Of a stretch of DNA of 48,641 nucleotides, positions 18,322 through 43,941 are shown piece by piece. Within the stretch, counting starts at the first letter, position 1. Each line of letters opens with the position of its first letter. The notes below the pieces were generated by a model. It was given only the letters and a program-made list of their open reading frames with translations, did not search any database and had not been told where the DNA came from. A program made the translations under genes and the position numbers. This DNA comes from an uncultured Desulfococcus sp. (GTDB taxonomy: Bacteria > Desulfobacterota > Desulfobacteria > Desulfobacterales > Desulfococcaceae). The stretch covers positions 1 through 48,641 of the forward strand of contig CAJXSB010000002.1 in assembly GCA_913060435.1 (NCBI GenBank). The letters are read 5' to 3'.

Positions 18322-18780
18322 ATGAAAAAAGTGCTCGTGCTGCACGGCATCAATCTCAACATGTTCGGCAAGCGGGACCCCGGCCAATACGGCACCATCA
18401 CCCTGGACGAGATCGACCGGCGGCTGGCAAAGCTGGGGGACGAACTGAGGGCCGCGGTGGAATGCTTCCAGACCAACCATGAAGGGGAGATGGTGGAAAG
18501 GATCCACCAGGCCCATGGGGACGGGACGGATGCGGTCGTCATCAACGCCGGCGCCTGGACCCACTACAGCTACGGCATCATGGACGCCCTCGGCATCCTG
18601 ACCATCCCGGTCGTGGAGGTTCACATGTCCCATGTCCATGCCCGGGAGGCGTTCCGGCGGACGTCGGTGGTCGCGCCCGTGGCCCGGGGGCAGATCTCCG
18701 GCTTTGGGGTGCAGAGCTACCTCCTGGGGCTGCGGGCCGCTGTCGAACTGGTCCAAGGTCCGGAGTCCGCCGACGGATGA
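18322..18780 (+). CDS. aroQ: Type II 3-dehydroquinate dehydratase
   Basis: The ATG at 18322 follows GGAGGAG and gives 152 residues, the normal size. The enzyme interconverts 3-dehydroquinate and 3-dehydroshikimate. Family motifs are HGINLNMFGKRDPGQYG (Arg18 and Tyr23 in the catalytic loop), the NAGAWTHYS turn, and EVHMSHVHAREAFRRTS with the active-site histidine. Small departures exist: HGINLN where GPNLN is common, and MSH where LSN is common. Type II enzymes act in biosynthesis and in quinate catabolism. The neighbours (a hydroxyacid-type FAD/Fe-S enzyme and an FCD regulator) make the second possibility worth keeping. Confidence 0.9.
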   Translation: MKKVLVLHGINLNMFGKRDPGQYGTITLDEIDRRLAKLGDELRAAVECFQTNHEGEMVERIHQAHGDGTDAVVINAGAWTHYSYGIMDALGILTIPVVEVHMSHVHAREAFRRTSVVAPVARGQISGFGVQSYLLGLRAAVELVQGPESADG

Positions 18781-18802
18781 GCCGGCCGGAGAAGGAGCGG
18801 CG

Positions 18803-21625
18803 ATGAGCACGCACGGTTTGGATTCCCTGGCACGGCGCATCGACGGCGAGGTCCGCACCGATGCCCTGCGCAGGCAGCTCCTGTCGACGGACGGCAGCAT
18901 CTTCCAGAAGGTGCCTGCCGCCGTGGTCTACCCCCGCCATGCCGGAGATGTCGAGGCGACGGCGGCGTTCGCCCGGGAGAAAGGGGTTTCGGTCCATCCC
19001 CGCGGGGCCGGGAGCGGGCTCTGCGGCGGGGCCCTGGGCGGTGGCATCGTGGTCGATTTCACCCGCCACATGAACCGGCTGATCCGGATCGACCTCGAAC
19101 GGGGCATCTTCGAATGCGAGCCCGGATATCGCCTGGGCCAGCTGGAGGCGGCCCTCGCCGGGACGGGGCGCTTCTTTCCGCCGGACCCTTCGAGCGGGGA
19201 GTACGCGACCTTCGGAGGCATGGTCGCCACCAACGCCAGCGGTGCCCACAGCGTCAAGTACGGCAATGTGGCCGACTACCTCCTGGACGCCGAGGTGGTG
19301 ACGGGCGACGCCCGCCGGATCGTCCTCTCGGAGATTGAAGGCCGGGATATCGGCGCCCTTCCGGCGCATCTCCGGGAACTGGCCCGATTGTACACCGAAA
19401 ACGCGGATGCCATCGAGCGGGCCTATCCCCCGATCCGGTGCAACGTGGCCGGATACAACCTCCGGGGGCTGGTCGACGGCGGGCGCCTCCGCCTGGCGCG
19501 GCTCTTTGCCGGGGCCGAGGGCACCCTGGGCATCGCCGTCCGCCTCACCTTCCGGCTCCGGGAAAAGCCGCCCTTCGACAGCCTGGTGGTGGCCGCCTTC
19601 GACGACATCGTCCGCTCGGCTGCGGCGGTGCAGCAGCTCCTGCCCATGGGCCCTTCGGGCATCGAGGTCATGGACAAATCCCTCCTGGGGCTTGCCCGCG
19701 AGAACGACCCCGCCCTCCGGGAGCAGATTCCCGAGGGGGTCGACAACCTCCTCCTCATCGAGTTTGACGGCGACACGGCTGCGGCATGTGCCCGTGCGGC
19801 AGCAGCGGCCAGGGAACTCCTGGCGGGCGCGGGGCTGAGCCGGGAGATCCACATCGCCGTATCCGGCGGGGAGAAGGAACGGTTCTGGGCCGTTCGCAAG
19901 GCTGCGGTGCCGATCCTCTACCGGCTTAAGGGGGAGAAGAAGATTTTGGCCCTCATCGAGGACGCGGCCGTGCCCACGGACCATCTGGCGGCGTATTTCA
20001 AGGGAATTTACGAGATCCTGGAAAGGCGGGGCGTGCGCTTCGTCACCTCCGGCCACATCGCCAAGGGTCTCCTCCACACCCGGCCGCTCCTCGACCTCCG
20101 GGATGCCGGGGATGTGGCCCTACTCAAACCCATTGCAGACGACGTCTACGCACTGGTCGAGGGCCTGGGGGGAACGGTCTCGGGCGAGCACGGCGACGGT
20201 CGCCTCCGGAGCGCCTACATCCGGCGGCGCTACCCGGAGATCTACGATCTTTTTGCCGCGGTCAAGCGTTGCCTGGACCCGTCGGGGATCTTCAACCCCG
20301 AGATCAAGACCCGCCACGAGCCGGACCAGATGGCCCGCGCCCTCCGGTTCGGGGCGGAATACGCCGCCGCCGACATGCCGGGCAAGGCCCTGGCCTGGCC
20401 CGAGGGATTTGTCCGGGAGGCCGAGAAATGCCATGGCTGCAGCAAATGCACCACCGTGACGACGGCCACCCGCATGTGCCCCGTCTACAAATTCACCCGC
20501 GACGAAGACGCCGCGCCCAAGGCCAAGGCCAACCTCCTGCGGGCGCTCATCAGCGGCGCGCTGCCCGAAAAGGCACTCTACCGCCGGGCGTTCCAGCAGG
20601 TGATGGCGCAGTGCGTCCACTGCGGGAGCTGCGTTCACGAGTGCCCGTCGGGGGTCAACATCCCCAAGCTGGCGGTGGAGGCCCGGGCCCAGTATGTCCA
20701 GCGGTTCGGGATCTCCCTGGACCATCGGCTGCTCACGGCTGTCGAGCTGGCCGGGCGGACCACCCGAAAGCTTCCGGAATCGTTGAAGCGCCTGGCGGAG
20801 ACCCGGCCCGCCAGGCGGGCGGCCGAGCGGTTCGCCAACGTATCCGCTCGACGGCGCCGCCCCTGTTTCCCCGCCCGTTCCCTCTTCGAGCGGGTCCCGG
20901 CCGCATCCAGCGGGGGCCGCCCCCGGGTGCTTTATTTTGCGGGGTGCTACGCCTCCTACATCCGGCCCGAGATCGGCGAGGCCGCCGTCCGGGTGCTGAC
21001 GGCCATGGGCATGACGGTCTTCGTGCCCCATCAGCACTGCTGCGGCCTGCCCATGCTGGCCAAGGGCATGACCCGCCAGGCGGCGGCAAAGATTCGGAAA
21101 AATCTCGCCCGGTGGGGGCGCCTGGCCAGTGAGGTGGATGCCGTGGTGGTCACGTGCTCCTCCTGCGGCCTCTCCCTGATGCGGGAGTGGGGGGATCTTG
21201 CGGGTGCCGCCGGCGTGGGAGCCATCCAGGCAAAAACGATGCACATCAGCCGCCTGATCGGGGATTTTCGCGAGCGGCTGCCCCTCGGGCCGATGCCTCT
21301 CCGCGCCGCCTACCACATGCCGTGCCACCTGAAGGTCCAGCCGTCGCCGGAAAGCTCCCTCTCCCTCCTGGCGCGGATCCCGGACCTGGCGGCTGTCGAC
21401 CTGAAAGGCCACTGCTGCGGCATGGCCGGAACCTGGGGCATGTGCGTCGCCAACGACGACCTGAGCCGGAAAATCGGCGCGGAGATGATCGCCCGGCTCG
21501 ACCGCTCGGGTGCGGCCGTCGGCGTGACCGACTGCCCCACCTGCCGGATGCAGATGGAGGAGATGGGAGATCTGCCCGTCCGGCATCCGATTGAACTCGC
21601 GGCCGCCGCCATCGCCGATGGATAA
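18803..21625 (+). CDS. Fused FAD/Fe-S oxidoreductase (GlcD-GlcF, D-lactate dehydrogenase type)
   Basis: The ATG at 18803 follows GAAGGAG and gives 940 residues. The N-terminal half is a PCMH-type FAD domain (HPRGAGSGLCGGALGG near 65-80) with a GlcD C-terminal domain ending in SGEHGDGRLR and LDPSGIFNPEIK. Two 4Fe-4S clusters follow: CHGCSKC near 542 and CVHCGSCVHECP near 603. Two CCG-type domains complete it (FAGC near 712, HQHCCGLP near 743, CHLK near 841, HCCGMAG near 870, DCPTC). Enzymes of this fused kind oxidise D-lactate, glycolate or D-2-hydroxyglutarate and pass electrons to quinone or cytochromes. The aroQ gene ends 22 nt upstream. Which hydroxy acid is used cannot be told. Confidence 0.9.
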   Translation: MSTHGLDSLARRIDGEVRTDALRRQLLSTDGSIFQKVPAAVVYPRHAGDVEATAAFAREKGVSVHPRGAGSGLCGGALGGGIVVDFTRHMNRLIRIDLERGIFECEPGYRLGQLEAALAGTGRFFPPDPSSGEYATFGGMVATNASGAHSVKYGNVADYLLDAEVVTGDARRIVLSEIEGRDIGALPAHLRELARLYTENADAIERAYPPIRCNVAGYNLRGLVDGGRLRLARLFAGAEGTLGIAVRLTFRLREKPPFDSLVVAAFDDIVRSAAAVQQLLPMGPSGIEVMDKSLLGLARENDPALREQIPEGVDNLLLIEFDGDTAAACARAAAAARELLAGAGLSREIHIAVSGGEKERFWAVRKAAVPILYRLKGEKKILALIEDAAVPTDHLAAYFKGIYEILERRGVRFVTSGHIAKGLLHTRPLLDLRDAGDVALLKPIADDVYALVEGLGGTVSGEHGDGRLRSAYIRRRYPEIYDLFAAVKRCLDPSGIFNPEIKTRHEPDQMARALRFGAEYAAADMPGKALAWPEGFVREAEKCHGCSKCTTVTTATRMCPVYKFTRDEDAAPKAKANLLRALISGALPEKALYRRAFQQVMAQCVHCGSCVHECPSGVNIPKLAVEARAQYVQRFGISLDHRLLTAVELAGRTTRKLPESLKRLAETRPARRAAERFANVSARRRRPCFPARSLFERVPAASSGGRPRVLYFAGCYASYIRPEIGEAAVRVLTAMGMTVFVPHQHCCGLPMLAKGMTRQAAAKIRKNLARWGRLASEVDAVVVTCSSCGLSLMREWGDLAGAAGVGAIQAKTMHISRLIGDFRERLPLGPMPLRAAYHMPCHLKVQPSPESSLSLLARIPDLAAVDLKGHCCGMAGTWGMCVANDDLSRKIGAEMIARLDRSGAAVGVTDCPTCRMQMEEMGDLPVRHPIELAAAAIADG

Positions 21626-30035: not shown

Positions 30036-30057
30036 TTTCCCCATGTTTCTTCAAACC

Positions 30058-30094
30058 GGCAGCGCATCGGTTTCACCCGAACCGATGCGCTGCC
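30058..30094. promoter_or_regulatory. Perfect 15-bp stem-loop in the mscS leader
   Basis: GGCAGCGCATCGGTT (30058-30072), loop TCACCCG, AACCGATGCGCTGCC (30080-30094) is a perfect inverted repeat. It ends 47 nt before the mscS ATG and leaves the ribosome site free. No U-run follows, so it is probably not an intrinsic terminator. It may stabilise the mRNA, bind a protein or terminate in a condition-dependent manner. Confidence 0.6.
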
Positions 30095-30141
30095 ATGAAC
30101 GATCCAAACAGAGCAGAAAGTACAGAAAGGAAACCCTCATC

Positions 30142-30969
30142 ATGAACAACATCGACGTATCCGCGCTCCTGGCAAAGGTCTATGAACTCCTCACGGTCTA
30201 CGGGCTCCGCATCATCGCAGCGCTGGCCATCTTCGTCATCGGGCGGTGGGTGGCCAAGGGGATCCGGAGCCTCCTGGGCCGGGTCATGGCCAAGAACGGC
30301 GTGGACGAAACCCTCACCACCTTTGTCTGCAACCTCAGCTATGTCGCCCTCCTGGTTTTCGTCATCGTGGCGGCCCTCAACCAGCTGGGGATCCAGACGG
30401 CCTCCTTTATCGCCGTGATCGGTGCCGCCGGCCTGGCCGTCGGCCTCGCCCTCCAGGGCTCCCTCTCCAACTTCGCGGCGGGGGTGCTCATGATCATCTT
30501 CCGTCCCTTCAAGGTCGGCGACTATGTTGAAGGCGGTGGTACCGCCGGGACGGTCGAGGAGATCCAGATCTTCGTCACCCAGCTCAAGACCCCGGACAAC
30601 AAGACCATCATCGTCCCCAACGCCAAGATGATGAGCGACAACATCGTCAACTACTCCACCAAGGGAACCCGGCGCGTGGACATGACCTTCGGCATCGGCT
30701 ATGGCGATGACATCGACAAGGCCCGCCAGGTCATCATGCGGATTATCGAGAAGGATGCGCGGGTCATGAAGGATCCTGCGCCGGTGGTGCTCCTTTTGGA
30801 GCTGGCGGACAGCAGCGTCAATTTCGCCGCCCGCTTCTGGACCTCGGCGGGCGACTACTGGGGCGCTTATTTCGATACCATGGAGGCGGTGAAGAAGCAC
30901 TTCGACGCCGAAAACATCAGCATCCCCTTCCCCCAGCGGGATGTGCACGTCTACAACCACGTCAGTTAA
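30142..30969 (+). CDS. mscS: Small-conductance mechanosensitive channel
   Basis: ATG at 30142 follows AAAGGAAA and gives 275 residues, close to E. coli MscS (286). Three membrane helices are visible in the first 125 residues. The pore-lining third helix has the Gly/Ala-rich pattern GAAGLAVGLALQGSLSNFAAG, followed by the beta-domain start FRPFKVGDYVE. The vestibule region includes VPNAKMMSDNIVNYS and the end IPFPQRDVHV, both typical. It opens upon membrane tension and releases solutes during hypo-osmotic shock. A perfect stem-loop lies in its leader. The GGDEF-like gene follows 120 nt downstream on the same strand. Confidence 0.95.
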   Translation: MNNIDVSALLAKVYELLTVYGLRIIAALAIFVIGRWVAKGIRSLLGRVMAKNGVDETLTTFVCNLSYVALLVFVIVAALNQLGIQTASFIAVIGAAGLAVGLALQGSLSNFAAGVLMIIFRPFKVGDYVEGGGTAGTVEEIQIFVTQLKTPDNKTIIVPNAKMMSDNIVNYSTKGTRRVDMTFGIGYGDDIDKARQVIMRIIEKDARVMKDPAPVVLLLELADSSVNFAARFWTSAGDYWGAYFDTMEAVKKHFDAENISIPFPQRDVHVYNHVS

Positions 30970-31766: not shown

Positions 31767-34349
31767 TCATATGTCGCCGGGGGGGATGTTTTCGTCTTCG
31801 AGTTCCTTTTCCGCGTTTTCCGCCTTCACCCGGGCCTTGGCAGCCCGCCGGGCAGCCTTTTCCGCCGCCTGGTCGGCTTTCTCCGCATCGCTCTCCAGCT
31901 GCGCCAGCATCTCCGGGTCGTCATCCCCACGGGCCGCCGCCACGTTTTCCTGGGCGGCCTCCGCCGCTTCCCGGGCATCGGCCGCGTCCTTTTCCGCGGC
32001 GTCGGCCTTCTTCTGCATCTCGGCCAGAGCGTCGAGGGCCGCGGCCCGTTCGGCGGCGGTTCCCTCCTCTGGCTCGGCGCCCAGGTCGATGTCCTCGGCC
32101 GCCAGGACCAGGGCCGTGGTCGGGAGCTTTTCGAGCAGGGCCTCGGCCCGCCCGGGGGCAAGGGTCTGGACCAGGTTGCCCTTGAGGCGGAAGGGGAGGA
32201 AGACCATGGCCGATTGAGCGGACGCCGCAATAACGGCTGCCGCGCTGCCGGCCGACTCGTCATCGCCGCTCTTTTCCGGGGCCAAGATGTGGAGATCCGC
32301 CTCGATCCGGGCCTCCTCCAGCACCGCGGCCAGGGCCTCTCTCCGTTCTTCCTCACCAGCATCTCCCTGGAAGGCGAACAGCCGGATCGACGCATCCTCC
32401 CAACGCGCATCGCGGGTTATCAGGTAGGCGAACAGCAGCATCATCGGGCCGGTGGCATCGTCGGACCACCAGACGTCGAGGTTGCGTCGGGCCGGTGCCG
32501 GTCCGTCCGCCGTCAGGCGCTCCCAACTCTCGACGCTGCTGTGGAGCACCACGATGTTGCAGCCAAGGCGGTGGATGGTCCGGAGCTGACGCCCGAAGAG
32601 GAACTCCCGGAACCCCATGGGGGAGGTCGAATCCGGGTCGAGCCAGTTGACGAGGATGGTGTTGACCCGCAGCGGGCCGATGCCGTGTGACTGGAGAAGG
32701 GTGTGGATGGCGGCCTCGGTGTTCTGGGTGGTGATCACCAGGGGAAAGGCCGCCGGGTCGTTCTCCCGGATGGCCTTCAGGAGCGCCGCTTCGGTCTCCT
32801 CCCTTGCCTTGGCCAACAGGAGGTCGCGTCCCTCCAGGAGGGTCACCACCGTGGTGAGGCCGCTGCCCCCGTCGAGCCAGGAGGCGAGGCGGAGCAGTCG
32901 GGGCCGGCGTTCGGGGTCCTGGGAAAAGGCGAGGATCTGGGGCCGCCAGTCCCGGTGGTGCTCGGGGGTGACGCCCGCCGCCAGGAGATTCTCCCGGACC
33001 CGCTGGAGGTGGTGGGCCCGGCGGCTGTCGGCCCATCGCGCCGGGCCGGCCGTCCGCCGCAGATACTGGAAGATGGCGAAGAGGATCGCCATGGCGGCGA
33101 CCCCCGTGGAGGGATCGATGGCCAGCATGACCCCCAGGCAGACGAGGCCGCCCAGCAGGCTGAGGCGCGGGTGGAACCACCGGAAGGTGGGCCGGAACGA
33201 GGGGCTCTCGGTCCGGGCCTCGTAGTAGGTGGCGTAGTTGAGCAGGCCGTAGGAGATCAGGAAGAACATCGACACCACCGGCGCGATGAGGTCGAGGTTG
33301 CCGAGGGCGATGGCGGCAAAGGCGATCCCCGCAGACAGGAGCACCCCCCGCCGGGGGTTGCCGCTGGGCCCGGATCCCTTGGCAAAGAAGAGGAGAAACG
33401 GAAAGATCCGGTCGGCGGACAGGGACTGGAGGATGCGCGGCGCCCCCAGAAACGAGGCCATGGCGGAGGAGAGGGTGGCGGCGATGACCCCGGCGTCGAC
33501 CAGGAATCCGAACCGGGCCAGCCGCTTCATGGCGGTGTAGTCGGCGGCAAGGTCCGGGTTGGGCATGGCCCCGGCAAAGACGAGGGCCGCCCCGAAATAG
33601 ACCAGGATCGAGACGCCCACGGCCATGAAGGTCCCGAGGGGAAGGCTCTTTCCCGGGTCCCTGAGGTCCCCCGACATGCTGACCCCCTGGGTGAAGCCGG
33701 TGACCGCCGGGAAGAAGAGGGCGAAGAGGACCCAGAAGGGCGGGCCGCCTTGGGGCGCGCTCCAGTTGGCCGAGAAGACGGCGCCGTCCCACCGGGGGAT
33801 GCCGCCCAGGAAGAAGGCGGCCAGGGACGCGATCAGGAGCGCCATGACCACGTACTGGAATTTCGTGGCCCAGTCGGCCCCCATCCACGCGAAGACCAGG
33901 AGGAAGGCGACAGCCCCGGCGGCGACGGCCCGGGGCGAAAGCTCGAGGCCTGCCAGCGGTGCGAGGTCGGCCACGGCCTCGCCGAAGCCGATGCCGTAGA
34001 AGGCGATGGAGACGGCCTGGGCCAGGAAGAGCACGAGGCCGATGGCGCCCCCGAACTCGACGCCGAGGGTCCGCGAGATCAGGTAATAGTCCCCGCCGCC
34101 CTTGACCTTGAGGTTGGTGGCCACCGCCGAGAGGGAGATGGAGGTGAGGACCGAGATGAGGTTGGCCGTGGCGATGATGACGAGGGCCCGGGCCGTGCCG
34201 GCGGCCCCCACCACGTACCCCAGCCGCAGGAAGAGAATGATGCCCAGGATGGTCAGGACGCTGGGCGTGAAGACGCCGGCGAAGGTGCCGAGGCGGCCGG
34301 GGGCCTGGGGTGCTGGGGATGCGGTCTGGTTCTGTTTGCTGGTTGCCAT
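31767..34349 (-). CDS. SLC12-like cation-chloride/amino acid permease with coiled-coil tail
   Basis: ATG at 34349 follows AAGGAA and gives 860 residues. Residues 20-480 form a 12-helix APC-superfamily transporter with the start FAGVFTPSVLTILGIILFLR, characteristic of cation-chloride cotransporter (SLC12) relatives, and VKGGGDYYLISRTLG. A soluble SLC12-type domain follows (about 480-780), and the last 75 residues are an Ala/Glu/Lys-rich coiled coil (ADAREAAEAAQENVAAARG). Substrate could be ions or amino acids. It is the last gene of a five-gene minus-strand row, 120 nt after the methyltransferase gene, so it may move the pathway's precursor or product. That link is inferred from position only. 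Confidence 0.82.
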   Translation of the reverse strand: MATSKQNQTASPAPQAPGRLGTFAGVFTPSVLTILGIILFLRLGYVVGAAGTARALVIIATANLISVLTSISLSAVATNLKVKGGGDYYLISRTLGVEFGGAIGLVLFLAQAVSIAFYGIGFGEAVADLAPLAGLELSPRAVAAGAVAFLLVFAWMGADWATKFQYVVMALLIASLAAFFLGGIPRWDGAVFSANWSAPQGGPPFWVLFALFFPAVTGFTQGVSMSGDLRDPGKSLPLGTFMAVGVSILVYFGAALVFAGAMPNPDLAADYTAMKRLARFGFLVDAGVIAATLSSAMASFLGAPRILQSLSADRIFPFLLFFAKGSGPSGNPRRGVLLSAGIAFAAIALGNLDLIAPVVSMFFLISYGLLNYATYYEARTESPSFRPTFRWFHPRLSLLGGLVCLGVMLAIDPSTGVAAMAILFAIFQYLRRTAGPARWADSRRAHHLQRVRENLLAAGVTPEHHRDWRPQILAFSQDPERRPRLLRLASWLDGGSGLTTVVTLLEGRDLLLAKAREETEAALLKAIRENDPAAFPLVITTQNTEAAIHTLLQSHGIGPLRVNTILVNWLDPDSTSPMGFREFLFGRQLRTIHRLGCNIVVLHSSVESWERLTADGPAPARRNLDVWWSDDATGPMMLLFAYLITRDARWEDASIRLFAFQGDAGEEERREALAAVLEEARIEADLHILAPEKSGDDESAGSAAAVIAASAQSAMVFLPFRLKGNLVQTLAPGRAEALLEKLPTTALVLAAEDIDLGAEPEEGTAAERAAALDALAEMQKKADAAEKDAADAREAAEAAQENVAAARGDDDPEMLAQLESDAEKADQAAEKAARRAAKARVKAENAEKELEDENIPPGDI

Positions 34350-34469
34350 GGTGTTCCTTGCCTGATTGTTGTATCGGCGGTCCGGGGAGCCCCGGCGCCC
34401 GCGCGTGCAGGCCCGGCGCCTGGATGCGGTCTCTTCCCGCATTCCCCCGGAGATTCGATGATCCGATGA

Positions 34470-35249
34470 TCAGGTTTTTTGAGCGGTGATGATCATCCGG
34501 TGGTTCATGCAGCCGTAGTCACCTTCCCCCAGATGGGGGGAGAAATCGGTGTGGATGGTCGTTCGGGAAAATCCTGCGCGCGTGGCTGCCGCCGCCAGTG
34601 CAGGGGGCTGATAGAGGCGCATGCAGTAGGTGCGGTCGCGAATCAGCCCGCTCTCCTTGCTGATGACCATCTCCCGGGCGCAGATAACGTCGCCCTGCTG
34701 TTCCCGCTGCCGGCAGACGACCACGTCGCCCCCGATCTCATGCCAGGCATTGGGGGAAAAGCGCTTCCGGATCGAAGCGCCGTCGGCGACATCCAGCAGG
34801 AGCCACCCGCCGTCTTTGAGAACGCGGTACGCTTCGGCCAGGATCTCGGCGTCCGCCTGCGGGTCGGGGATATACCCCAGGGAATTGCCAAGCACCATGA
34901 CGTGGTCGAAGCAGCTCCTGGGGAACGCGATGTTCCGGGCATCGCCGTTGACAAATGCCACGGAAAGGCGGTGGCGGGCCGCTGCGGCCGCTCCCCGCCG
35001 GAGCAGGCAGCGGGAATAGTCGAGGACCGTGCAGTGCGCAAACCCCCGCCGGGAGAGCTCCAGGGCATGGCGGCCGTGCCCGCCGCAGAGATCGAGGATC
35101 TGGTGGGACCGGCCGATGGGGATCAGCCGGGAGAAGACCTCGACCTCCGTCTCGGTGACTTCCGGGCTGCAGACGGACCGGGCGTCGGTGACCAGGTAGA
35201 CATCGTCGAAGAGGGTCTTCCACCAGTCGGGATCGACGTGGATCGTCAT
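34470..35249 (-). CDS. Class I SAM-dependent methyltransferase
   Basis: This 259-residue enzyme has the Rossmann-like methyltransferase fold. Motif I is ILDLCGGHGRHA at 51-62, followed by the FVNGDARNIAF motif III-like segment, SFDHVMVLGNSLGYI and LKDGGWLLLDVADG. The methyl acceptor is unknown; the fold resembles small-molecule and peptide methyltransferases (UbiE/BioC type) rather than RNA enzymes. It starts inside the stop of the ATP-grasp gene (ATGA at 35249-35246), so the two proteins are made together, and probably act on the same molecule. The mid-region contains several Cys and Trp residues without an obvious metal site. Confidence 0.85.
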   Translation of the reverse strand: MTIHVDPDWWKTLFDDVYLVTDARSVCSPEVTETEVEVFSRLIPIGRSHQILDLCGGHGRHALELSRRGFAHCTVLDYSRCLLRRGAAAAARHRLSVAFVNGDARNIAFPRSCFDHVMVLGNSLGYIPDPQADAEILAEAYRVLKDGGWLLLDVADGASIRKRFSPNAWHEIGGDVVVCRQREQQGDVICAREMVISKESGLIRDRTYCMRLYQPPALAAAATRAGFSRTTIHTDFSPHLGEGDYGCMNHRMIITAQKT

Positions 35250-36643
35250 GGCGCCTCCGGGTGGGCGCCGAAGCTGAAGAGCCCGTCCGCGGCGAAAATG
35301 GCCGGGGAGCCTTTCCAGGGCTGGGATCGGGCGATCTCGAGCTCCTCGGCCTCGATGTCGATGTAGTCGTCCAGCACGCCGTCGAACCACATCTGCTCCA
35401 GGACCCGACTGTCCTCCCACATGGCCCGGGAGTAGGACGCCAGGGCGCCCAGGTGGGCTTCGGTGAGAACCCGCGGCCGGAGCGCGATCCGGATGGGGCC
35501 CAGCAGGTAGGTAAACCGCTTTTCGAGGGCCAGGGCCTTCTGGATGCCCACCAGCTCAACCACATCGCCCACGGGCATCGCCATGATCGCGTCGTTGATC
35601 CGGTGGACGGCGTCGCGCACGCTCATGTCGGACCGGAGAATGCCCATGGGGTGGACCCCGCCCCCGCTGCCGACATTGGTGGGCACGTTCCCGTACCGGC
35701 CCAGGAACCCGAACACGGCATCCGGCCCGACCAGGCACCGGAAATCGGTCTGGTATCGCTTCAGCACCACCGCTTTTCGGGCTTCGTCCAGCTCCGGGAT
35801 CTCTTCGGCCCAGAGATCGAGGGGCACTTTTTCCTGCAGGATGTAGTTCTCCTCCCGCAGGGCGGTCTCGATAGCGGCATCGGCGTCCGGGTTCACGGTG
35901 CCCACAAAGACGCCCCTCCCGGAGTAGCCCCGTTCCGGTTTGAGCACCAGGTCGTCCCAGTGGGCCCGGGCCCAGGTGATAAGATCGTCGATTGGCTCCC
36001 CTTTGGGGCCGGTGGCCTTCCGGGGGCGGAACCGGCGGGTCCACGGCGTGCGGGCCACGGTCTCGGGATGAAAGCGGTCCGAATACGGGCCGGTGATTAC
36101 CTCGAACATGCTTTTCACGTTGATCGGCTCCGTGCCCCGCGGGTTGAGTACGCGATTGTCACGGATCGCCGCCATCAACGGGGAGAGATCGTGTTTTCGG
36201 TGCAGCTTCAGGAAGACATCGTTGTTGAAGTCCATGAAGACCAGGGAGACGGGCTGCCCCTGGTAGGTGGTTCGGCCCTGCCGGTCCAGCTCGAATTCAT
36301 GCGGCGCGGCAAGGATGCCGGTGATGCCGTCGAACCCGTCGAGCCGACGGGCGATGTTGATGTTTTCCGTCACATCGGTGAGGGTCTCCTCCTCCGCGAC
36401 AATGGCGATCACGCCGGGGCCGCTGCCGTCCCGCCGCCGCTGGACGTCGACCAGCATCTCGGCAAACCCCTTGACCGGGCAGAGCATGGGGTGGTCGAAG
36501 TCGAGGTCCACCCCGACCGGCCGGATCCGGTTCATTTTTTCCCAGACGACCTTTGCGATCTCCTGGGTCATCCGCTGGTAGTCCCAACCGCCGGGGCTCC
36601 CCAGATTCCATTCTGAATGGTATCCCCAAAACGTCTCCACCAT
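35246..36643 (-). CDS. ATP-grasp-like ligase, uncharacterised family
   Basis: This 465-residue protein contains an ATP-grasp-type glycine loop with the key lysine (LVLKPERGYSGRG, Lys235-Gly244), then EENYILQEKVPL and, further on, GRYGNVPTNVGSGGG, where the metal-binding Glu/Asn residues of the fold would lie. ATP-grasp enzymes join a carboxylate to an amine or thiol using ATP. The N-terminal 200 residues (starting FWGYHSEWNLGSPGGW) resemble circularly arranged members such as glutathionylspermidine-synthase relatives, but I cannot place it. AGGAGG lies just before the ATG. It overlaps the methyltransferase gene by 4 nt. Function inferred: peptide-bond or amide formation in a small pathway. 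Confidence 0.65.
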   Translation of the reverse strand: MVETFWGYHSEWNLGSPGGWDYQRMTQEIAKVVWEKMNRIRPVGVDLDFDHPMLCPVKGFAEMLVDVQRRRDGSGPGVIAIVAEEETLTDVTENINIARRLDGFDGITGILAAPHEFELDRQGRTTYQGQPVSLVFMDFNNDVFLKLHRKHDLSPLMAAIRDNRVLNPRGTEPINVKSMFEVITGPYSDRFHPETVARTPWTRRFRPRKATGPKGEPIDDLITWARAHWDDLVLKPERGYSGRGVFVGTVNPDADAAIETALREENYILQEKVPLDLWAEEIPELDEARKAVVLKRYQTDFRCLVGPDAVFGFLGRYGNVPTNVGSGGGVHPMGILRSDMSVRDAVHRINDAIMAMPVGDVVELVGIQKALALEKRFTYLLGPIRIALRPRVLTEAHLGALASYSRAMWEDSRVLEQMWFDGVLDDYIDIEAEELEIARSQPWKGSPAIFAADGLFSFGAHPEAP

Positions 36644-36738
36644 CTCCCTCCTCGAAGTCTGTCGGCACTGTCATGCGCTTCGGCGCAGCGCCGTGTCCGG
36701 GTGGTGCGGCCCCTGGGTCATGAGGGGGATCCGCGCTC

Positions 36739-38340
36739 TCAAGTCCTGTCTGTCCGGCAAACCTCTTTCCTGCATACCATCTTTTCGAGATTTGCCAAGC
36801 CGATTTCGCCCGTGGCAAAAACGATTCGCGTGAAATCCGCCGGATGGGTGTGCTCTTTTCGCCATGATTCATAGATCCGCTCAAACCACCGCATGCCGAT
36901 GGTATAGCAGAGCTGATAGCCGGGCTTCAGGGCGTACCGCCGTACCATGGCCAAGGCCTGCCGACGTCCCATTCCGGCCGTCGTCAACAATTCCGCGGCC
37001 TCTGGGATGGTTTTCCGACCGGTCTGGATCTCCAGGTCCGCCAGGCCCCGCATGGCCCGCCAGAACCGCCGCTTCGCCAGCAGGAAGCGGTCGATGGGCC
37101 CGGTGAAAAAGCCGGTGTGGAACAGCAGCTTCTCCGAAAAGCAGGCCCATCCCTCGTAGAACAGGGGGAACTCGATGTGGCGGCGGAGGGGGCGCGGGAG
37201 CCCCCAGCGGGACGTGTCCAGGAGGTGGTGGCCGGCATAGGTCTCATGGGCGGTGAGCAGGCGGAAGTCATGGGGGAGGTGGTCCGGGTGGTAGCGGTCG
37301 TCCACGTAGAAGGTCCCGCCCCGGGGCGGATGGCCCGGCGGCATGCTGTAGGCGGCCGCACTCCGGATCGTGGCGAGGTAGGGCGGCACCGGTGCGACCC
37401 GTACCGGGCATGCCTCCAGCAGGGAGGCGTCGATGAGGCCCTTTGCCGCGCAGTGGCGGCCAAGGTCGTCGATGGCGGACCGATAGAGGGCCGACATGCC
37501 GCCCTCGGGCGGCGCCGGCGGAGGCAGATGCGACATCACCGCCTGCCAGGGGTGTCCCGGCAGGATCCGGCCCCCTTCCTCCGCCAGGACGGCCGACATC
37601 TCGGCCCGCTCCTGCTCGAGCTCGCAACGGATCTCCCGGACGCCCATGCCGCAGCCGATGTGATGCCGGACAATCCGGTCCAGCTGTGCCGGCGGGAGTA
37701 TGAAGTCCACCGTAACGGGAATCTTACGAAGGTGGCCGTGCAGATCATCGAGGGCGTCGAACGCCGGCCGGACATACCGGTCCTCCAGGGCGAGCGAGAC
37801 CAGCCATGCGCGGACGCTCTCCAGCATCTCCAGGCCAAGGTCGCGGAAATGGGCGGGGATAAGCTTGAGGTTCCGGCGGGCCTGGGCCATGAAGTCTGGC
37901 AGGACCTGCAGCCGCGCCTCCAGAGCATGATGCCCGACCGCCAGGGCTTCGGCCATCCCGATGGCGGCGACGCTCAGGTGGAATGTGGGCTGGGTTTCCT
38001 GGAACCGGACCTCGCCAAGCTGTTCGCGAAGGGTCCGGAGCACCCGGCGCAGCACGGCGATGTCGATCATCGAATCCGGATCCCCGGGCACATCGGATCG
38101 ATCGGTTCGATTACCGAGCGTATCCTCCCACCCGGAGATCTGTTTGTCTAAACGCGCGAGGGCGCCCGGGGAGAAATCATCCCATTGGAATGGGCCGTGC
38201 CGGCAGGTCTCGGCCTGGGGGAAGTAATGGAATTCATCGCTGGCCATGCAGACCGGAAACTGCCGGGCAAGCGCGTTGAAGATTTCGGCTGCGAGGGCCT
38301 CGATGGATGCCGGTGGGCCATCGGGGCGTGCCGGCGTCAA
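36739..38340 (-). CDS. DUF885 family putative metallopeptidase
   Basis: This 533-residue protein belongs to DUF885, which carries a zinc-peptidase-like HExxPGHH motif; here it reads HETYAGHH at 365-372, with Ala in place of Pro. The second signature YEGWACFSE at 396-404 supplies the usual glutamate. The N-terminal 300 residues are helical. A few members are reported as carboxypeptidase-like, but most are untested. There is no signal peptide, so it should act in the cytoplasm. It overlaps the FAD oxidoreductase gene by 4 nt (ATGA), and its stop is 95 nt before the ATP-grasp gene. It may trim or hydrolyse the product of the ligase, an inference from context. Confidence 0.82.
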   Translation of the reverse strand: MTPARPDGPPASIEALAAEIFNALARQFPVCMASDEFHYFPQAETCRHGPFQWDDFSPGALARLDKQISGWEDTLGNRTDRSDVPGDPDSMIDIAVLRRVLRTLREQLGEVRFQETQPTFHLSVAAIGMAEALAVGHHALEARLQVLPDFMAQARRNLKLIPAHFRDLGLEMLESVRAWLVSLALEDRYVRPAFDALDDLHGHLRKIPVTVDFILPPAQLDRIVRHHIGCGMGVREIRCELEQERAEMSAVLAEEGGRILPGHPWQAVMSHLPPPAPPEGGMSALYRSAIDDLGRHCAAKGLIDASLLEACPVRVAPVPPYLATIRSAAAYSMPPGHPPRGGTFYVDDRYHPDHLPHDFRLLTAHETYAGHHLLDTSRWGLPRPLRRHIEFPLFYEGWACFSEKLLFHTGFFTGPIDRFLLAKRRFWRAMRGLADLEIQTGRKTIPEAAELLTTAGMGRRQALAMVRRYALKPGYQLCYTIGMRWFERIYESWRKEHTHPADFTRIVFATGEIGLANLEKMVCRKEVCRTDRT

Positions 38341-39764
38341 GGGTCGCCCTTCCCACCGCCTCGGTGCGGCGCTCCGGCAAAGTTCCGCGCCACCAGGTCC
38401 TTGGCATACTGGACGATGCCTTCGACGAAATCGAAGTCGTAGAGGCCCCCCACGTAGTAGGTCCGGTTGTCGCCCTGGATCCTCTCCCAGGCGTCGTAGT
38501 AGCCGTCCTGGAAATCCGCTGGGCCGACATGCCGGAAATAGTGCCAGACGTCGTAGGAATGCCAGTCGTCCTCATATCGGATGCGGCCGCCGAGGGCGCG
38601 GGCATACCGGGCGATCTGCTCCTTGAGGCGGGCCTCGTCTTCCGGCGTCGGCTCTCGGGTGGGGAGATAGGCATAGAATGCCATGAGTTCATTGTCCGGG
38701 TACTGCTGGGTGATGATCAGCGGCTCGCCCACGGGGGGCGGGGGCACGACAAAGACGAGCCGCTCCTGCAGGGGGGCGCCTGCGATCTCAAAGGTGGCGA
38801 CGGCGTATGGGTTGAATCGGAGCCGGGCGGCCAGCCGCGCCTCCTCCGGGCTCAGGTCCATGAATGTCGCAAACTCCTCGGGCAGCAGGGGGCAGGCCAG
38901 GATGAGGTAGTCATACCGGGCCGTCACATTGTCGTGGATCACCTGTCTGTTGATCAGCTGGGACGGGTGGGCGTAGGTGATGGTAACCCCTTCGCCGCTC
39001 CGCTCGATCCGCTTGACCGTGCAGTTGCGCCGGACGTTCAGCTCCCAGGAGAGGCGCTCCCAGAACCGCTGAAATCCGAAGGTGAAGCGTTGGAGCAGGA
39101 GGCACGCAGGGATGAAACGGGCCAGGGGGCCCGAGCTGAGGAGGCCGGAGACGAGGGTCATGGGGCTGATATAGCGGAGGGCATAGGGTGCCGCGATCGC
39201 CTCGAGGTCGCCGTACCCGAAAGCCGTCAAGGGGATTTCGAAGAGACGGGCGAGGTCTTGGAGGTTTCGCCGCCGAAGCCATTCGAGAAAGGATACGCAA
39301 AGCGCCGGGTATGCCGCGACGCCCTCCCACCCGGGCCGGTCGATCACCCGGCGGTGGCGAAGCCAGTGCCGGATATAGCGCAGGCAGCGCCATAAAAACC
39401 GTATTCTGGCGGAAGGCGACGCACCCCCGGCCAGGTAGGTGAACAGGTCATGGTACCGGCCGCCGTCGGCCGAACCGGCGGGTGATATGGCCGTCGCCCC
39501 CCAGATGGGCGTAAGCGTCATGCCGATGCGCCGGGCGATCTTGCGGACCTCATGGTAGGAGGGGGGCACGATCACGGCCCCGAGATCGAAGGACTGGTAG
39601 TCTTCGGTGGCCGAGCAGCAGAGGCCGCCGACCCGGCCCAGCCGCTCCATGACCGTGACGTTCTTGAAGCCGTGCTGCTTGAGGTAATAGGCCGTCGACA
39701 GCCCGGCAGGGCCGGCGCCGATGATGAGGATGGCTGCGCTGGTGTCGACCTTGGGCTGCATCAT
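38337..39764 (-). CDS. FAD/NAD(P)-binding amine-oxidase-like oxidoreductase
   Basis: ATG at 39764 follows AGGAGG and gives 475 residues. The N-terminal nucleotide-binding motif ILIIGAGPAGLSTAYYL is followed by the ExxxxxGG signature (MERLGRVGG, then LCCSATEDYQSFDLGA). This is the pattern of protoporphyrinogen oxidase/phytoene desaturase-type flavoproteins. The C-terminal part holds YYVGGLYDFDFVEGIV, resembling the second FAD contact. Such enzymes oxidise amines, tyrosine-type side chains or polyenes. It is the first gene of the five-gene row and overlaps the DUF885 gene by 4 nt. Substrate unknown. The longer frame from 39881 lacks a ribosome site. Confidence 0.84.
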   Translation of the reverse strand: MMQPKVDTSAAILIIGAGPAGLSTAYYLKQHGFKNVTVMERLGRVGGLCCSATEDYQSFDLGAVIVPPSYHEVRKIARRIGMTLTPIWGATAISPAGSADGGRYHDLFTYLAGGASPSARIRFLWRCLRYIRHWLRHRRVIDRPGWEGVAAYPALCVSFLEWLRRRNLQDLARLFEIPLTAFGYGDLEAIAAPYALRYISPMTLVSGLLSSGPLARFIPACLLLQRFTFGFQRFWERLSWELNVRRNCTVKRIERSGEGVTITYAHPSQLINRQVIHDNVTARYDYLILACPLLPEEFATFMDLSPEEARLAARLRFNPYAVATFEIAGAPLQERLVFVVPPPPVGEPLIITQQYPDNELMAFYAYLPTREPTPEDEARLKEQIARYARALGGRIRYEDDWHSYDVWHYFRHVGPADFQDGYYDAWERIQGDNRTYYVGGLYDFDFVEGIVQYAKDLVARNFAGAPHRGGGKGDP

Positions 39765-42496: not shown

Positions 42497-42522
42497 CATC
42501 ATGCTCCTGGAGGATATGGTTG

Positions 42523-43941
42523 ATGACGGACCGTATGCAGATGTTTCAGAAACACGAGCTCGACCTGATCAATGACGCCTCCATGGAGATCCTGGGGCGG
42601 ATCGGGGTAAGGTTCCATTCCGAGGGGGCATTGGCGGTGTTTCAGCAGCATGGATTCCGACAGGACGGCAAGAGCGTCTTCTTTACGGAAAAGGATGTTC
42701 AAAGCGCCCTGGAGAGCGCGCCGGCACGGTTTCGGATTCGGGCCCGGAATCCCGCAAAGGACGTCTCCATCGGCGGTGACGATTTCGTTCTTCTGCCCAC
42801 CGGCGGGGCTCCCAATGTCGCTGCGAGCAGCGGAGAGCAGCGGCCGGCCACCCTCGAGGACTACCATACCTGCTGCAGGCTGGTGCAAACATCGGATCAA
42901 CTGGACATGAACGGCTGCCTGATGGTCCAGCCGACGGACCTTCCGCCGGGAACGGCCCATCTGGACATGCTTTTCGCCAACATGGTGATGTGCGACAAGG
43001 CCTATGTCGGCCCCGCCATGTTCCGAGCAGCAGCCGTCGACGCCCTGGAGATGGCCGCCATTGCCTGGGGCGGACCGGAGCGCCTCAAGGAAGCGCCGGT
43101 CATGGCCGCCATTGTGAGTGCAACCTCGCCGCTGCAGTATCCTGCAGACGAGGCGGACGCCATTATCGAGATGGCCCGCGCCGGGCAGGCCGTGGTGATC
43201 ACGGACCTGGTCATGGCCGGCACCAGCGGCCCCATCGCTTTGCCGGGCCTCCTGGCCTTGGCCAACGCCGAGATCCTGGCGGGCATCGTTCTCGCGCAGC
43301 TGGCAGGTCCGGGGGCCCCGGTGGTATATGGATCCGTCTCCGCGCCGGCGGATATGCGGACCGTCACCTCGGCGGTGGGGGCGCCGGAGGCGGTGGTGCT
43401 CGCATCCGCCGTCATCCAGCTGGCCCAGCACTACGGGCTGCCGTGCCGGACCGGCGGCATGATCACCAACGCCCACTGCCCCGATGCCCAGGCCGCGGCG
43501 GAAGGAACGCTGATGATGAGCACGGCGCTGAGAAACGGCGCCAACTTCATCTTTCACGCCTGCGGCCAGCTGGGCTCCTACATCTCCATGAGCTTCGAAA
43601 AATGGCTCATCGACGAGGAGGTCTGCCGGACGCTCCGCCGTGTCCTGACCAGCATGCAGATCACCGTCGAATCGATTGACATCGAAACCATCAACAGCGT
43701 CGGCATCGATGGCAGCTATCTGCGGCACCCCACGACATTCAAACACTGCCGCGAGCTCTATCAGCCGGTCATCTTTACCCGGCGCGACTACCCCGGATGG
43801 CGGAAAAAGGGCGCCTTCCGGGCGGAGGAACAGGCCGCCAGAGCACTTGCCGACCGCCTGTCCCAGTATACCAGACCTCCCATCGACGAAGGGCTTTCAG
43901 AGGCGCTGGCGGACTTTGTCCGCCGGCGTAAACGGGGATGA
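42523..43941 (+). CDS. MttB-family corrinoid methyltransferase, non-pyrrolysine
   Basis: This 472-residue protein (TTG at 42520 is an alternative start) belongs to the trimethylamine methyltransferase superfamily (PF06253). There is no internal TAG, so it lacks pyrrolysine and is like the quaternary-amine enzymes MtgB, MtcB and MtpB. It has the TIM-barrel pattern RIGVRFHSEGALAVFQQHGF, MAGTSGPIALPG and FHACGQLGSYISMSFEKW. Members move a methyl group from glycine betaine, carnitine or a similar compound to a corrinoid protein. No corrinoid protein (MtgC-like) or MtgA gene lies in the window, so partners are elsewhere. The following gene is an ABM monooxygenase-like protein, 79 nt away. Confidence 0.9.
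   Translation: MTDRMQMFQKHELDLINDASMEILGRIGVRFHSEGALAVFQQHGFRQDGKSVFFTEKDVQSALESAPARFRIRARNPAKDVSIGGDDFVLLPTGGAPNVAASSGEQRPATLEDYHTCCRLVQTSDQLDMNGCLMVQPTDLPPGTAHLDMLFANMVMCDKAYVGPAMFRAAAVDALEMAAIAWGGPERLKEAPVMAAIVSATSPLQYPADEADAIIEMARAGQAVVITDLVMAGTSGPIALPGLLALANAEILAGIVLAQLAGPGAPVVYGSVSAPADMRTVTSAVGAPEAVVLASAVIQLAQHYGLPCRTGGMITNAHCPDAQAAAEGTLMMSTALRNGANFIFHACGQLGSYISMSFEKWLIDEEVCRTLRRVLTSMQITVESIDIETINSVGIDGSYLRHPTTFKHCRELYQPVIFTRRDYPGWRKKGAFRAEEQAARALADRLSQYTRPPIDEGLSEALADFVRRRKRG

Follow-up and report, generated by a model that had tools for sequence, protein, structure and literature searches.

In the biosynthesis of E-64, an amide is formed by Cp1B, an ATP-grasp enzyme resembling glutathione (GSH) synthetase, and the ATP-grasp enzymes YgiC and YjfC have been described as peptidylpolyamine synthetases (PMC12568646). 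In the open-licence literature, no paper joining the DUF885 family with an ATP-grasp enzyme was found, and mentions of DUF885 were incidental. Here, we describe a locus of an uncultured Desulfococcus sp. (contig CAJXSB010000002.1) in which genes for a DUF885 metallopeptidase, an ATP-grasp ligase and a class I S-adenosylmethionine (SAM)-dependent methyltransferase follow each other on the minus strand. The stretch analyzed, further called the window, spans bases 1 to 48,641 of contig 2 in a draft genome of 4.6 Mb. DUF885, ATP-grasp and methyltransferase, in this order, constitute a real conserved module. Each component belongs to a known superfamily; the permutation of the ligase and the strict linkage of the three genes are the surprising parts.

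Gene layout

The minus-strand block at positions 31767-39764 holds five complete open reading frames (ORFs), as claimed by an earlier note made from the sequence alone. The three middle ones are the core genes:

36739..38340, minus strand: DUF885 metallopeptidase, core gene 1; 533 amino acids (aa), TTG start; PF05960, E 1.5e-38
35246..36643, minus strand: circularly permuted ATP-grasp ligase, core gene 2; 465 aa, ATG start; no Pfam family
34470..35249, minus strand: class I SAM-dependent methyltransferase, core gene 3; 259 aa, ATG start; PF13649, E 2.4e-18

They are flanked by a FAD-dependent enzyme gene upstream and an SLC12-like transporter gene downstream. The gaps of 95 nucleotides (nt; 36644-36738) and 120 nt (34350-34469) given in the earlier note were correct. 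It had also reported two ATGA overlaps; the ligase/methyltransferase junction is indeed ATGA, but the FAD/DUF885 junction is TTGA. Its family calls were confirmed by Pfam for the FAD enzyme, DUF885, the methyltransferase and the SLC12-like protein, whereas the ATP-grasp, having no Pfam match, was assigned from fold and profile evidence. The TTG of the DUF885 gene is the most upstream ATG, GTG or TTG in frame and was taken as the start because a later ATG (codon 32) would cut the conserved FPVCxASDEF motif. On the minus strand, no terminator-like site was found in the methyltransferase-SLC12 gap, so a single transcript is possible in the window. RNA families were not found in the window.

Co-occurrence and conservation of the locus

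The ATP-grasp was present in 17 of 96 related genomes and in 24 of 395 sampled across the phylum. The ligase-bearing relatives of the window are metagenome-assembled genomes (MAGs) of Desulfobacterales, and a scan of all GTDB contigs with exact short patterns for the ligase gave matches in deltaproteobacterial MAGs only. No close relative was found in phage, plasmid and viral collections. Following independent searches, the ATP-grasp and this DUF885 subfamily were located in the identical 17 of the 96 genomes (Fisher 3e-19), and the methyltransferase was shared by 16 of the 17 ligase genomes (Fisher 1e-13), the tests treating genomes as independent, so that these and the later p-values overstate certainty. 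Even so, a match of 17 out of 17 against 79 joint absences for ATP-grasp and DUF885 can hardly be explained in another way. The lone ligase genome without the methyltransferase (G058) has an N-gap beside the gene. Four further genomes carry the methyltransferase, two as a fusion (G005 and G028) and two as weak partial matches.

In total, 41 ligase loci were examined, several of which are cut by contig ends. Usually, DUF885 lies directly upstream and the methyltransferase directly downstream of the ligase on the same strand, and this order and orientation hold for the majority of loci, including those whose ATP-grasps share only 43-48% identity. Allowing gaps of less than 400 nt, the ligase adjoins DUF885 at 30 of these loci and the methyltransferase at 33, with both partners at 25. 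The full trio is also seen at L027; at L031 and L085 it is present too, but a gap is wider or a frame is broken. All three gene pairs occur without the third gene adjoining, namely ligase and methyltransferase (L041 and L042), DUF885 and ligase (L047 and L089) and DUF885 and methyltransferase (L121), which counts for one unit. The order and strand of the trio recur in each of the two main branches of the ligase tree and are therefore probably ancestral, the splits being of later date.

Other conserved neighbors were sought by clustering around the ligase loci and none was found. An acyltransferase, a D-aminopeptidase of family M55, PAS regulators and MFS transporters were considered as partners of the trio and rejected, each adjoining in a few loci only. 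Also rejected were a selenocysteine in the ligase of L053, where TGA is a true stop within the ATGA overlap, an 865-aa ligase fusion in L046, which spans an assembly gap filled with N, and a split ligase in L085, which looks like a frameshift.

Some loci show further peculiarities. At L041, which lacks DUF885, a 183-aa methyltransferase-like gene (TehB/Methyltransf_25; L041:3467-4018) lies directly upstream of the ligase, and a similar 185-aa gene occupies the same place at L042. Genome G070 carries two near-identical DUF885 and methyltransferase pairs (L120 and L121), representing a duplicate or an assembly error, and the one ligase found in this genome lies elsewhere, alone. The methyltransferase of L120 is damaged, with a TGA and an altered SAM motif; the TGA, standing in a near-duplicate of an intact copy, was rejected as a selenocysteine codon.

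The ATP-grasp ligase

The window ligase gave no Pfam match, no significant NCBIfam match and, in a single-sequence search, no PDB match. Once the E-value limit was relaxed, PF14403 matched 8 of 34 ligase relatives below threshold (best E 7.6e-5); PF03738 matched none of 58 relatives. A structural model was built from ten sequences, with a mean predicted local distance difference test (pLDDT) of 76, lower at both termini. Using Foldseek, the model retrieved human glutathione synthetase (E 1.8e-6). In VIA comparisons, plant glutathione synthetase ranked best (Z 12.9 over 294 residues, root-mean-square deviation 4.6), followed by YgiC (Z 11.9), GspS (Z 10.4), RimK (Z 10.3) and Cp1B (Z 9.1); YjfC was matched as well. 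Profile alignment by hhalign against glutathionylspermidine (GSP)-synthase-like cousins gave E 1e-42. The following motifs were located in the ligase gene:

36605..36613, minus strand: E11-x-N13, putative N-terminal Mg-ligand motif; E11 and N13 invariant in 34 proteins, aligned to the ExN of L099 and of a Sinorhizobium GSP-synthase-family protein
35909..35941, minus strand: glycine-rich ATP-binding loop KPERGYSGRGV, residues 235-245; K235, G239, S241, G242 and G244 invariant in 34 proteins
35285..35287, minus strand: D453 in ADGLF, putative C-terminal Mg-ligand position (the D of RxD); D453-G454 without exception in 34 proteins; the counterpart is RLD in L099 and RLDGLF in the Sinorhizobium protein, where RxD and ExN are adjacent

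The fold, together with the lysine, the GxSGxG loop and the Mg-ligand positions, places the protein in the ATP-grasp superfamily, and it is predicted to catalyze ATP-dependent ligation of a carboxylate and an amine. Judging from the aligned families, E11, N13 and D453 presumably bind Mg.

The order of these elements along the chain is unusual. In the distant cousins L097-L099 (approximately 28% identity) and in the Sinorhizobium protein (25%), the usual order is helical part, RxD, ExN and ATP loop. This layout of GSP synthase and eukaryotic GSH synthetase, with RxD and ExN in the N-terminal third and the ATP loop after them, is not that of the window ligase. In the profile alignment, residues 1-345 of the window ligase correspond to L099 126-486, and the C-terminal piece 346-465 alone aligns to L099 12-132 (E 3e-8), with a score of 58, whereas 30 column shuffles scored 17.6 at most. 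Rotating the sequence at approximately residue 340 made the alignment with L099 collinear over 441 columns versus 326 before (E 1e-51 versus 1e-42) and extended the alignment with the Sinorhizobium protein from 307 to 419 columns. The joint is clearest in the latter protein, where a few residues separate RLDGLF from ETNTESPGG, while the window ligase starts with HSEWNLGSPGG and ends with ADGLFSFG. Thus, by these alignments, the presumed Mg-ligand motifs occupy the two termini of the chain, and the ligase is a re-permuted ATP-grasp. As residues 77-462 are collinear with canonical ATP-grasps such as RimK, the cut lies between the last two Mg-ligand strands. The residue before D453 is of Ala, Val or Cys type, the Arg of RxD being lost.

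Downstream of the unpermuted GSP-synthase-like cousin at L099 come two TldD/PmbA metallopeptidase genes (L099:7374-11619), another pairing of a ligase with peptidases.

The DUF885 peptidase

The DUF885 protein scored 134 bits against PF05960 (cut-off 32.4). Its AlphaFold2 model (pLDDT 88.7) was compared by VIA with solved DUF885 structures 3o0y, 3u24 and 3iuk, giving Z 28.8-30.5. Lower values were obtained for oligoendopeptidase F and M32 carboxypeptidases (Z 13-15), MATCAP (13.6) and ACE (10-12), with neurolysin within 10-15. The active-site motif was located as follows:

37225..37248, minus strand: HETYAGHH, residues 365-372 of the DUF885 protein; HETxPGHH in most relatives, with Ala for Pro in the window

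Among 36 DUF885 proteins of the triad, H365, E366, G370 and H371 are invariant (36/36) and H372 is kept in 34; virtually all of them also retain E403 and the YEGWA motif beginning at Y395. Motif and modeled fold together indicate a protein of metallopeptidase type. Folds of the M32, M3 and ACE type usually have a deep channel admitting short peptides.

The methyltransferase and its fused counterparts

Assignment of core gene 3 to the class I SAM-dependent methyltransferases was based on its Pfam match and on SAM motif I:

35067..35096, minus strand: SAM-binding motif I LDLCGGHGRH, residues 52-61 of the methyltransferase; L52, D53, C55, G56, G57, G59, R60 and H61 invariant in 20 proteins

Among solved structures, the putative methyltransferase 9ri2 comes nearest to it (E 3e-17). 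With 37.5 bits, the protein falls far below the cut-off of 350 of the NCBIfam equivalog for glycine/sarcosine N-methyltransferase, and the UbiE/MenG subfamily model outscores the latter, indicating generic similarity.

Relatives of the methyltransferase (36-39% identity) were found fused to an ATP-grasp resembling D-Ala-D-Ala ligase, the fusion proteins having 620-730 aa. In two genomes, an M32 carboxypeptidase gene comes after the fusion (L128:3578-7079 and L129:2143-6047), overlapping it in one; in a third genome, the fusion is preceded by a gene of the N-formylglutamate-amidohydrolase family (L117:2654-5444). Hence, the combination of a methyltransferase, an amide ligase and a metallopeptidase exists in at least two versions, which differ in their ligases and peptidases.

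Proposed pathway and alternative explanations

We give about even chances to the reading that the trio is a compact pathway working without a nonribosomal peptide synthetase (NRPS), the product of which is a small methylated, amide-linked metabolite, most likely an amino-acid amide. In such a pathway, the ATP-grasp would activate a carboxylate as acyl phosphate, using ATP and Mg2+, and join it to an amine, which could be an amino acid, a short peptide or a polyamine; amide formation by Cp1B in E-64 biosynthesis provides a precedent for this fold. The methyltransferase would methylate one building block or the product. DUF885, shaped like carboxypeptidases with a closed channel, would either trim a peptide precursor to yield a building block or adjust the level of the finished amide by hydrolysis. 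The final metabolite would be small, methylated and amide-linked, made without an NRPS or a precursor peptide. The data show the three-gene unit with its conservation, the folds, the active-site motifs and the permutation of the ligase, whereas substrates, product and the sequence of the steps are inferred. The earlier note had proposed a small amino-acid- or peptide-type pathway of this kind for all five genes; this stands well for the three middle genes and not for a five-gene unit. Co-occurrence in other genomes, the test set beforehand, was passed by the three and failed by the FAD enzyme and the SLC12 transporter.

Several observations weigh against the proposed pathway. The ligase stands alone at L048 and L050, and is accompanied by the peptidase only at L047. 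A dedicated exporter or building-block enzyme conserved with the trio was not seen. As the Arg of RxD is absent from the ligase, its substrate site differs from that of the related enzymes. Finally, an M32 gene was present at only two of nine loci carrying the methyltransferase-ligase fusion or its methyltransferase homolog; since most other fusion loci have no peptidase neighbor, the peptidase part of the recurrence argument rests on few cases.

Alternatively, the three enzymes could act on the tail of a protein or peptide, with the ATP-grasp adding an amino acid to the C-terminus or a side chain as in RimK and tubulin tyrosine ligase, DUF885 removing it as does MATCAP and the methyltransferase capping it. 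In favor of this, RimK (Z 10.3) and tubulin tyrosine ligase (Z 8.5-8.6) are among the matches of the ligase model, MATCAP, a tubulin tyrosine carboxypeptidase, is among those of the DUF885 model (Z 13.6), and no other pair within the trio is linked as strictly as ligase and peptidase. We nevertheless consider such a cycle unlikely, as the nearest fold matches of the ligase are small-molecule synthetases, folds of the M32/M3/ACE type generally take short peptides, and neither a substrate protein nor a small peptide gene conserved beside the trio was found.

Salvage or detoxification was judged to have a similarly low probability. An imported or endogenous peptide conjugate would then be hydrolyzed by DUF885, followed by methylation and re-ligation, with no dedicated product. 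The peptidase-like nature of the first core gene is in line with this, as is the finding of no conserved biosynthetic feeder genes beside the trio. An ATP-consuming ligase as the strictest partner of the peptidase is not readily explained in this way, however, and no conserved importer was found beside the trio.

Beyond the proposed NRPS-free pathway as such, a bolder version is conceivable, to which we give somewhat less than even chances: the trio would make a low-molecular-weight metabolite not described so far, such as a methylated compound of glutathione-like or peptidyl-amine type, widespread in Desulfobacterota, by means of an ATP-grasp of new topology cut between two Mg-binding strands, and this type of pathway would recur from unrelated parts. 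If a small metabolite is indeed shared, it would represent new chemistry in bacteria of the sulfate-reducer type, on which the methyltransferase-ligase fusion offers a second, independent handle. The ligase illustrates another route to circularly permute a very old enzyme fold. The three genes form a compact, testable unit in environmentally important anaerobes, which curated family libraries do not list as a system.

The FAD enzyme and the SLC12 transporter

The remaining two genes of the block are:

38337..39764, minus strand: FAD-dependent amine-oxidase-like enzyme, local neighbor, not core; 475 aa, ATG start; PF01593, E 3e-22
31767..34349, minus strand: SLC12/cation-chloride-cotransporter-like transporter, local neighbor, not core; 860 aa, ATG start; PF00324, E 2e-53, and PF03522, E 1e-14

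Both are outside the conserved trio and merely local neighbors. A relative of the FAD enzyme (71%) was found in one of 95 other genomes, which has neither ATP-grasp nor DUF885, leaving a co-occurrence with the ATP-grasp of 1 in 17 (Fisher 0.32, 96 genomes). The transporter matches PF00324 and PF03522 over the cut-off and falls below that of the NCBIfam K-Cl model (482 versus 953). It was found in 34 of the 96 genomes (33 of the 95 others), never adjoining the ATP-grasp outside the window; in triad genomes it lies elsewhere, on other contigs or far from the triad. Transporters of the SLC12 family move ions such as K+, Na+ and Cl-, not peptides.

In ligase genomes, SLC12 is enriched (11 of 17 versus 23 of 79, Fisher 0.007), a weak statistical association that may be a habitat effect. 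This enrichment and the weak similarity of the methyltransferase to glycine/sarcosine N-methyltransferases would both fit synthesis of a methylated osmoprotectant as compatible solute, linked to ion transport. We regard this as improbable; the enrichment ignores relatedness and habitat, the gene is never adjacent outside the window, and the methyltransferase similarity is generic, with a higher score for the UbiE/MenG model. That all five genes form one dedicated pathway, the FAD enzyme oxidizing and SLC12 exporting the product, is very improbable despite their tight spacing on the same strand, the TTGA junction and the lack of a minus-strand terminator-like site before SLC12, because the only other FAD enzyme occurs without the triad, SLC12 is located elsewhere in all other triad genomes having it and its family carries ions; as a cluster, the five genes were rejected on co-occurrence across genomes.

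On the opposite strand, a little downstream of the SLC12-like gene, lies a gene for an MscS-type mechanosensitive channel (window 30043-30969, plus strand).

Other genes of the window

Elsewhere in the window, the following were noted:

1689-4322, minus strand: 877-aa protein, the C-terminal domain of which is of phage tail sheath type; may be a contractile injection system or a phage remnant
4704-10651, minus strand: RND efflux operon with an outer membrane efflux protein, an AcrB-family pump and a HlyD/CusB-type adaptor
18632-21625, plus strand: 997-aa fusion of a FAD-linked oxidase with 4Fe-4S and cysteine-rich domains
42520-43941, plus strand: MTTB-family protein (trimethylamine methyltransferase superfamily)

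Comparison with known systems

Amide formation by a stand-alone ATP-grasp within a compact cluster is likewise seen in the biosynthesis of E-64 (Cp1A-D; PMC12568646) and in further NRPS-independent amide pathways, for instance that of the dapdiamides. An oxygenase, a decarboxylase and an adenylate-forming synthetase are absent from the trio, which instead has a methyltransferase and a metallopeptidase.

With respect to the ligase, eukaryotic glutathione synthetase, GspS, YgiC/YjfC and Cp1B are the best fold matches, and their ExN motif and ATP loop can be aligned with those of the window protein. They differ in that their N-terminal helical part and D strand correspond to its C-terminal part, and in that the Arg of RxD is missing here. 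In the case of RimK, LysX and D-Ala-D-Ala ligase, residues 77-462 of the window ligase align in chain order to RimK 1-254 (Z 10.3), but their last Mg-ligand strand, carrying ExN, is C-terminal, whereas it is N-terminal in the window ligase.

The peptidase shares family or fold class and a motif of HExxPGHH type with the solved DUF885 proteins (3o0y, 3u24 and 3iuk) and with M32, M3 and ACE metallopeptidases. Its subfamily is distinct and linked to the ATP-grasp; among the solved relatives, two were deposited as putative lipoproteins. A counterpart of the whole trio is the fusion of a methyltransferase with a D-Ala-D-Ala-ligase-like ATP-grasp followed by M32 at L128 and L129; its methyltransferase is homologous, and it comes with an ATP-grasp as well as a metallopeptidase whose fold class is similar. 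It differs from the trio in its ligase and peptidase, which are of other families, and in being fused, and DUF885 has no match in genomes G005 and G028.

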